Notes under the pieces: generated by a model
What the model saw: only the letters and a program-made list of their open reading frames with translations
Told to the model about the DNA's origin: nothing
Database searches by the model: none
Assembly: GCF_014899185.1 (NCBI RefSeq)
Contig: NZ_CP045201.1
Span: 2,829,501 to 2,893,500 of the forward strand
Reading direction: 5' to 3'
Length of the DNA: 64,000 bases
From: Pseudooceanicola spongiae
GTDB taxonomy: Bacteria > Pseudomonadota > Alphaproteobacteria > Rhodobacterales > Rhodobacteraceae
Translations under genes and position numbers: made by a program
Part shown: positions 5,982 through 60,933 of the stretch, one piece after another
Layout: each line of letters begins with the position of its first letter
How positions within the stretch are numbered: the stretch's first letter is position 1

Positions 5982-6419
5982 TTACTTGGTGCGATACGCC
6001 TGATGGCAGCCACCGCAGGACGCACCGATCGGGCCAACACCGGCCTTGATCGTGTCGAGCGAGGACGGGTCGAGCGCGTCTGCCGCACCTTCCAGCGCCG
6101 TGGCGTGGATGACGAAATCATCCCAGTTGTCCCAGATCGCCGGCAGCGCCTTGGACTCGGGGTCCATCTCGTTCGGCTCAAAAGCGGCGGGGATCTTTGC
6201 CGCAGCCTCGACCAGAGTCGCCTGCGCCGCAGAAGCCTTTTCGGCGTCGAAATCGACCTTGCCCTGCGCCATGCCGCCAAGGGTCGCGAAACTGCCGCGA
6301 ATCGTGTCCATCAGCTCCATACGGTCTTTCACCACCGGATTGCTGACCTCGGCGTGGGCGAAAGCCACGCCCGCAAGGCTCAGAGCGCCGATCGTCGTCG
6401 TCAGGATGAAATGCTTCAT
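5982..6419 (-). CDS. Cytochrome c' family protein
   Basis: A 145-residue periplasmic c-type cytochrome. A signal peptide covers about residues 1-23 (MKHFILTTTIGALSLAGVAF, then AHA). The single haem site CGGCH is at residues 135-139, ten residues from the C terminus, as expected for class II cytochromes (cytochrome c', cytochrome c-556), whose four-helix bundle binds haem near the end. The C-terminal lysine-rich tail follows directly. These proteins bind NO or CO or act as electron carriers; which one applies here is not visible. A good ribosome site (GGGAGAAGACG) precedes the ATG. Confidence 0.88.
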   Translation of the reverse strand: MKHFILTTTIGALSLAGVAFAHAEVSNPVVKDRMELMDTIRGSFATLGGMAQGKVDFDAEKASAAQATLVEAAAKIPAAFEPNEMDPESKALPAIWDNWDDFVIHATALEGAADALDPSSLDTIKAGVGPIGASCGGCHQAYRTK

Positions 6420-6593
6420 CGTCTTCTCCCAATTGTCATTGCGACCACATTACCTGCATCCTTGCCTGCGCCAAGATGCCGCGAGTCATGATCACGAAAA
6501 GGTCAGAGGGATGAAAATTTCGTGAACCCGAGGAGGCTTAACCGCCCAGCAAATCGCCACACGCCGCGCATGGTTAACATGGGTCGGGGCGCA

Positions 6594-6641
6594 AAACGGC
6601 ATGTCGGTATCTGGTCGGTATCTGAACGGTATCCGGGCGGT
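6594..6641 (-). repeat. 11-bp-period ACCG array, copy A
   Basis: Four CGGT tetramers (ACCG on the minus strand) start at 6605, 6616, 6627 and 6638, exactly 11 bp apart. Read on the minus strand, three of the four units have the form ATACCG, followed by ACATGCCGTTTTG. Related arrays lie at 37045 and 60860. The array sits inside the 346-base gap between the cytochrome c' start and the DUF2794 start; nothing else in that gap looks like a gene. Confidence 0.75.
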
Positions 6642-6765
6642 GGCGCTGGCGCAAAAAACAACAGGTTAACGCAGCCTGCACAGCCAGACTGCAAACGGCG
6701 GAACTGCACACAATGTGATGCGAATGCCGCTTGATTTTGACGGCAGGCGGGCGCAGGATTCGGGG

Positions 6766-7143
6766 ATGACGCTTCAAGGCCCTCCCCCCGTTCCGGCACA
6801 TGCGCCCCCTCAGGTGGCCTTTCAGAGGAGCGAGATGAACGTGATCCTGTCGCTGTATGGCAGAATGGTCGCAGCGGGTGAGTGGCGCGATTACGGCATC
6901 TCGAACCTGAGCGAGGTCGCGGTCTTCTCGATCTTTCGCCGCACCGCCGAAAACCCGCTCTACCGGATCGAGAAGCGCCCCAAGCTGCGCGCCAAGCAGG
7001 GGATGTACACCGTGCATGGCATGGACGGTCAGGTTCTGCGGCGCGGCCACGATCTGAAGACCGTGCTGCGGGTGCTGGAGCGTAAGCTGATCCGCGCCGT
7101 AGATTGCCCCCTTACAGATAGGGCAGACGCCGCCGCGCGATGA
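6766..7143 (+). CDS. DUF2794 domain protein
   Basis: A 125-residue conserved alphaproteobacterial protein. The family core is LYGRMVAAGEWRDYGIS, then VFSIFRRTAENPLYRIEKRP and GQVLRRGHDLKTVLRVLERK. The proline-rich N terminus is variable in the family. An earlier in-frame ATG (6715) exists, but the family normally begins close to the chosen start. No function is established. Its last 32 bases overlap the 3' end of the converging NlpC/P60 gene. Confidence 0.8.
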   Translation: MTLQGPPPVPAHAPPQVAFQRSEMNVILSLYGRMVAAGEWRDYGISNLSEVAVFSIFRRTAENPLYRIEKRPKLRAKQGMYTVHGMDGQVLRRGHDLKTVLRVLERKLIRAVDCPLTDRADAAAR

Positions 7144-22722: not shown

Positions 22723-22752
22723 TACGGTGCCAATACCGTATGATTACGGTAT
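22723..22752. promoter_or_regulatory. Candidate operator with three alternating half-sites
   Basis: ATACCGTA (22733-22740) and TACGGTAT (22745-22752) form an 8-bp perfect inverted repeat with a four-base spacer. A further TACGGT at 22723-22728 forms a second inverted pair with ACCGTA (22735-22740). The site lies between the divergent M20 and PAS-LuxR genes, ending nine bases before the LuxR start, which suggests autoregulation as well as control of the transporter cluster. The assignment to that regulator is inferred. Confidence 0.6.
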
Positions 22753-36942: not shown

Positions 36943-37044
36943 CGCAGCTGTACCCCGGTTCCGGTCAGGCACCAAACCTGACCGCTGACTGAGGCGCAGC
37001 CTATCGCGGCGCGCGTTAACAACCGGTTCCCGGGCAAAAGGCGC

Positions 37045-37098
37045 ACCGTTCAGATACCGACCGGATACCGGCGCAATACCGACAGGCCGTTTCGGGCC
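37045..37098 (+). repeat. 11-bp-period ACCG array, copy B
   Basis: ACCG starts at 37045, 37056, 37067 and 37078, exactly 11 bp apart; the last three are ATACCG. It is followed by ACAGGCCGTTTCGG. The preceding GGGCAAAAGGCGC resembles the start of copy C. It lies in the 246-base gap between the VHL-like gene and livF. Confidence 0.75.
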
Positions 37099-37138
37099 GT
37101 TTCGGCGATTAACCTTTCGCGCCCGGCAGACATGCAAA

Positions 37139-60859: not shown

Positions 60860-60906
60860 ACCGTTCAGTTACCGTTCAGATACCGACGCAATACCGACAT
60901 CCCGAT
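60860..60906 (+). repeat. 11-bp-period ACCG array, copy C
   Basis: ACCG starts at 60860, 60871, 60882 and 60893, exactly 11 bp apart. Preceded by CCGGGCAAATTCGC and followed by ACATCCCGATT, both shared in form with copy B (and the downstream part with copy A). It lies in the 121-base gap between converging mntH and the VOC gene. Confidence 0.75.
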
Positions 60907-60933
60907 TCCGGCGATTTGAGCGGTTCAGAGGCG

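Follow-up and report, generated by a model that had tools for sequence, protein, structure and literature searches.

Intergenic ACCG arrays with an 11-bp period as candidate oriented sites on the chromosomes of Pseudooceanicola and related bacteria

Arrays of ACCG units, usually four, repeated head to tail in 11-bp steps and followed by a conserved tail, were found between genes over the whole chromosome of the Pseudooceanicola (Roseobacter group) from which the analysed DNA was taken (genome G000, a single contig of 4,365,781 bp). Their strongest property is an orientation that, in three genomes, follows the replication arms. With confidence falling a little short of even, we read the arrays as oriented sites, spread chromosome-wide, for a candidate oligomeric DNA-binding protein that would use them as an optional signal of direction or architecture.

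Three arrays (A, B, and C) were present in the window, i.e., the whole stretch of 64,000 nucleotides that was analysed, at 2,829,501-2,893,500 of G000. For array A, a preliminary description had reported four minus-strand ACCG units with the tail ACATGCCGTTTT, which we confirmed exactly, and the two further arrays of like design that it mentioned are B and C. Its statement that nothing matched outside the unit and tail was only partly right: other sequence differed, but many copies share an A/T tract and CGC ahead of the array and phased A/T tracts behind it, and a minority, including A and B, carry TTAAC(C) on either side at a distance of about 28 bp. The Pfam-named neighbors of the three arrays were cytochrome c', DUF2794, an ABC transporter, Nramp, and a glyoxalase. 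A consensus scan of positions 6400 to 6850, around array A, returned neither a promoter nor a terminator. No Rfam family matched within the window at the gathering threshold, and the single-strand fold z-scores of the arrays (-0.46 for A, 0.31 for B, and -1.03 for C) were not unusual; together, these results ruled out an RNA element. Two other sequences in the window were noted. The strings GTTAAC, TTAACC, and GGTTAA gave 13 matches at 10 places, all between called genes (which cover about 91% of the window), and form an intergenic motif in their own right, one that is found beside arrays A and B as well. The sequence ATACCGTATGATTACGGTAT at 22733-22752, which separates two divergent genes, is a palindrome whose 8-bp arms match perfectly; it has ATACCG, yet it is an ordinary operator-like site and not an array.

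Table 1. Arrays and associated elements in the window
Feature	Position	Strand	Remark
Array A, four ACCG units in 11-bp steps	6605-6641	-	Units at 6605, 6616, 6627, and 6638
Array A tail, ACATGCCGTTTTGCGCCCCGA	6584-6604	-	Corresponding region in other copies conserved to about +21
GTTAACC, 5' flank of array A	6664-6670	-	
GTTAACC, 3' flank of array A	6572-6578	-	
Array B, four ACCG units	37045-37081	+	Equivalent gap of P. antarcticus (L291) has an array
Array B tail	37082-37102	+	
GTTAAC, 5' flank of array B	37015-37020	+	
TTAACC, 3' flank of array B	37109-37114	+	
Array C, four ACCG units	60860-60896	+	Convergent gap
Array C tail	60897-60917	+	

A three-unit pattern with at most one mismatch matched 7 times in the window versus 0.62 times expected, and 7 matches were reached in none of 100 shuffles. 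Six of the seven were exact and together form arrays A to C. Throughout G000 the three-unit pattern occurred 229 times versus 5 times for a reversed control, and the four-unit pattern occurred 104 times versus none. A genome-wide search had been set in the preliminary description as the test that could refute it; the pattern occurred above the chance rate and beyond a single window, and the claim stood. Chance was ruled out as the origin of the arrays by the window shuffles and the genome-wide reversed control. Our list for G000 holds at least 115 arrays, being near complete below 3.19 Mb and confined to four-unit arrays above that position. Two pairs of arrays in this genome (L080/L086 and L082/L088) have flanks that appear similar by eye and were perhaps copied within larger duplications.

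The distribution among genomes was patchy, with 15 or more three-unit matches in 13 of 292 genomes and 7 of 112 genera (recounted by eye). Within Pseudooceanicola, a stricter pattern was present in 4 of 22 genomes and missing from 18 (completeness was below 80% for two of the 22); its absence from so many congeners indicates that the function is not essential. At least 93 loci lay on named contigs with titles of Rhodobacterales or unclassified Alphaproteobacteria, and the matches listed included Salinihabitans, Roseovarius, Sulfitobacter aestuariivivens, Shimia, Silicimonas, Thiosulfatihalobacter, and Boseongicola. In genomes G061 and G139 the reversed control (GCCA at 11-bp steps) was itself abundant, with 47 and 21 matches, perhaps because of another periodic repeat. 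Two BLAST searches of public plasmids, in which short repetitive queries may be filtered, found no array: one gave no match, and the other gave a single weak match (E value of 0.1) that covered only the tail and lay inside a Rhizobium gene. Among the viral contigs of the collection, seven had a match to a three-unit pattern, and the surroundings of two of these appeared Roseobacter-like by eye. A plasmid or phage origin was rejected. The arrays resemble plasmid partition or replication iterons, such as R1 parC with its 11-bp repeats, in that direct repeats of 11 bp follow one another along one face of the DNA, but they are dispersed singly over the chromosome rather than collected at one rep or par locus. 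The earlier term iteron, in the sense of a single replication or partition locus, was not supported: the arrays lie chromosome-wide between unrelated genes, and none appeared in the two plasmid searches.

The anatomy of the motif was nearly constant. Among 80 arrays of G000 read with their flanks, 76 had four units, three had three, and one had five; in a set of 314 arrays the corresponding numbers were 213, 78, and 23. The 76 four-unit copies were conserved from about -11 to +21 and flat beyond about -13 and +33, with the order A-or-T tract, CGC, four ACCG units, ACATCNCRATTT, and a second T tract. Each unit reads ACCGN5WT, so that A or T followed by T precedes each following unit, and in the 5' tract A and T were interchangeable, with no fixed letter. 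The sole feature that stood out beyond the conserved core was TTAAC(C) on both sides in 14 of the 76 copies, at -29/-30 and at +26 to +29. For 78 arrays taken from named contigs, most of them from other genera, the unit was ACCGACGYRAT and TTAAC peaked near -28 and +28/29; the spacer flavor was TTCAG in G000 and ACG elsewhere. A/T content across the 314 arrays peaked near +10, +20, and +30, and 69 of 113 TTAA occurrences between +10 and +60 occupied two neighboring phases of the 11-bp register. The upstream TTAA kept a constant distance but stood outside this register. The exact period had been taken from the beginning to imply a protein along one DNA face, and such binding is probable on the evidence of the 11-bp period, the near-constant unit number, the A-or-T 5' tract, and the retention of place without that of the spacer. 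On these sequence features, the arrays look like a protein footprint rather than a mobile element.

As judged with a simple home-made gene caller whose start sites are uncertain, 77 of the 80 G000 arrays were free of gene overlap, as were 230 of the 239 arrays in a larger set. Of 231 genes on the 5' side, 146 ended toward the array, as did 116 of 227 genes on the other side. Classified gaps from three genomes (n = 149) were convergent in 53 cases, divergent in 16, and codirectional in 80, which is not the location of promoters, divergent gaps being the rarest class. This bears on whether the arrays are operators of an OmpR/PhoB-type response regulator of the CtrA or PhoP kind, acting on 11-bp direct repeats, which we regard as quite unlikely. 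CtrA and PhoB do have 11-bp head-to-tail direct-repeat operators, a repeat present in the arrays, and the downstream TTAACC, which we take to be a CtrA-like half-site, lies in the same register as the units. The period also agrees with that of PhoP, for which PMC4832192 gives 7-bp repeats with 4-bp spacers. However, the arrays usually have four units, avoid promoter gaps, and extend chromosome-wide, the genes flanking A to C have no common theme, and an orientation dependent on the replication arm is not expected of operators. Neighbors shared between arrays looked by eye like dnaJ/radC, cysS, murD, transporter, or sarcosine-oxidase genes, plus regA, and among them there was no clear candidate for a reader gene recurring beside the arrays.

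Some arrays have kept their place across species and genera. A gap was counted as shared when both flanking 1.5-kb halves matched. Comparison of P. atlanticus (G296) with the 80 G000 arrays gave a shared gap in 5 of 40 queries, all with the same orientation. Entries from other loci, a set of 205 that includes a few arrays fetched twice, shared a gap with G000 in 10 cases (nine in the same orientation and one inverted) and with G296 in 9, from which one P. atlanticus array fetched twice (L249/L125) is to be discounted. Pairs with only one flank shared numbered 21 (G296 versus G000), 83 (others versus G000), and 36 (others versus G296). Array B was among the conserved arrays, with its counterpart in P. 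antarcticus, and for some arrays the spacers changed while gap and orientation persisted across species and genera. At the 3' end of regA, where G000 also has an array, 27 of 28 genomes were readable: an array was present in four (G296, G226, G256, and G196), an eroded array in three (G001, G093, and G041), and none in 20, several array-rich genomes included. This array has been kept in Pseudooceanicola and a second genus, and we read the pattern as old sites probably retained by some lineages and lost from others.

Such persistence with changed spacers argues against a dispersed REP- or MITE-like repeat that would owe its orientation bias to one-strand insertion at the fork. REP/BIME elements occur as many genome-specific intergenic copies near gene ends, and the arrays are likewise intergenic, numerous, near gene ends, genome-specific in flavor, and patchy in distribution. 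However, they keep a strict 11-bp period, the 76 copies have no common sequence beyond the motif, the three window arrays showed neither a hairpin nor unusual folding, and the GTTAACC flanks appear by eye too constant between loci for target duplications. A dispersed repeat is already a strained reading, and we consider it very unlikely.

The polarity of the arrays was determined in three closed genomes, with the origin placed by parS near 3.22 Mb (G000), 1.38 Mb (G170), and 2.93 Mb (G283). The terminus was placed near 0.95 Mb by sampled GC skew in G000 and at the antipode of parS in G170 and G283, and in the latter two the array strands switch at this antipode. The ACCG strand was oriented toward the origin in 73 of 115 arrays (G000), 38 of 47 (G170), and 30 of 41 (G283). 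Pooled, 141 of 203 arrays pointed toward the origin (P = 3e-8) and 62, about 30%, pointed the opposite way; three of these entries belong to lists that are complete for just one strand, and their removal leaves 138 of 200. The bias increased by quarter from origin to terminus (25/44, 36/58, 41/54, and 39/47, or 57, 62, 76, and 83%; permutation P = 0.007), and the origin half of G000 had little bias (36/65). Abundance showed no such rise, with 31, 33, 27, and 24 arrays per quarter in G000, 5, 14, 15, and 13 in G170, and 8, 11, 12, and 10 in G283. Among 167 arrays with fetched flanks, those pointing toward the origin made up 42 of 53 in convergent gaps and 36 of 47 in '+ +' gaps, and there was no bias in '- -' (20/33) or divergent (8/16) gaps. 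Gene direction is balanced in convergent gaps, where the polarity of 42 of 53 was seen.

Most of the known direction signals of bacterial chromosomes are abundant octamers, such as KOPS. The arrays differ in being four-unit 11-bp structures with a structured tail, in numbering about 115 listed intergenic copies rather than thousands, and in an abundance that is flat along the arm. They resemble KOPS/AIMS, for which PMC5993296 gives a definition by strand bias relative to replication that rises toward the terminus, in being biased with respect to replication, increasingly so toward the terminus, with P. atlanticus showing alternation instead. The rising bias fits selection of the AIMS type as presented in PMC5993296.

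The same gaps could suggest a polar roadblock at gene ends, at which bound protein would slow or stop RNA polymerase or a wrong-way fork from one side only, the oncoming fork being shielded from head-on transcription in a Tus-Ter-like action. Gene 3' ends are favored, as seen in the 5'-side neighbors, as are convergent over divergent gaps; in 42 of 53 convergent gaps the ACCG side faces the lagging-strand gene, and flanking genes were lagging in 175 cases and leading in 138, versus 198 and 186 for other genes of the same loci. Like Ter, the arrays are long, low-copy, polar chromosomal sites. However, they extend over both whole arms, the reversed sites, 62 of 203, would be intolerable to a hard fork barrier, and collisions alone do not predict a bias gradient toward the terminus. 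The Pfam profile of Tus matched in none of 17 genomes (14 array-positive and 3 not), with a positive E. coli control, and Tus was rejected. The roadblock seems unlikely to us.

FtsK gamma was also considered as the reader. It is single copy in 30 of 30 genomes, and its recognition helix did not set 14 array-positive genomes apart from 16 that were array-poor or -negative, the one variable position (A/G) differing within each group. The helix is thus essentially the same whether or not arrays abound, a further point of difference from KOPS, and on this sequence comparison FtsK gamma is unlikely to be a genome-specific reader. Gyrase is a general protein, and arrays are missing from most congeners, which weighs against arrays that act as a curvature element, or as a site wrapped by a general topological protein of this kind, where supercoils collect at gene ends. 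A/T tracts kept in phase for about 100 bp and the preference for gene ends would suit such a site; the replication-arm polarity would be left unexplained, and we give this reading a very low probability.

Under our preferred reading of the arrays as oriented protein sites, we infer that a putative oligomeric protein would dock head to tail on one DNA face and bend the phased A/T region. The resulting polar complex would present two faces for a machine travelling along the chromosome arms to distinguish, in the way that FtsK reads KOPS, and its likeliest use would be in orienting or loading a segregation or condensation machine, mainly on terminus-proximal DNA. The system would be optional; several lineages seem to have lost it, and their sites then may erode. 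A more specific proposal, which we hold only tentatively and as somewhat doubtful, is that the arrays are a previously undescribed direction signal of the Roseobacter group, consisting of long, oriented nucleoprotein sites, multi-unit and intergenic, with a lineage-specific, repeatedly lost reader, and serving arm organization or segregation independently of FtsK. We found no description of such arrays in the open-license literature. If the proposal is true, an optional, low-copy, multi-unit polar signal can be rich in one species and missing in most of its congeners, the natural losses could be used to ask what direction signals do, and the reader would be a new chromosome-organizing protein in an ecologically major marine group.

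The spacing and strand order of the arrays differed between genomes. The 86 arrays of G000 below 3.19 Mb had a mean gap of 36 kb and a coefficient of variation (CV) of 0.70 versus 0.98 for random placement (0 of 2,000), and those of P. atlanticus had a CV of 0.65 versus 0.89 (P = 0.02). Even spacing was not seen in G170 and G283, which ruled it out as a general rule. Strand agreement between neighboring arrays was 20 of 32 in G176 and 7 of 11 in G018, neither being significant. In P. atlanticus, just 6 of 32 pairs of neighbors were on the same strand (P = 0.0005; contigs C1, C3, C12, C23, C34, and C44), contrary to arm polarity. Even spacing, as seen in two Pseudooceanicola genomes, and strand alternation, as seen in one of these, could indicate that the arrays mark domain boundaries.
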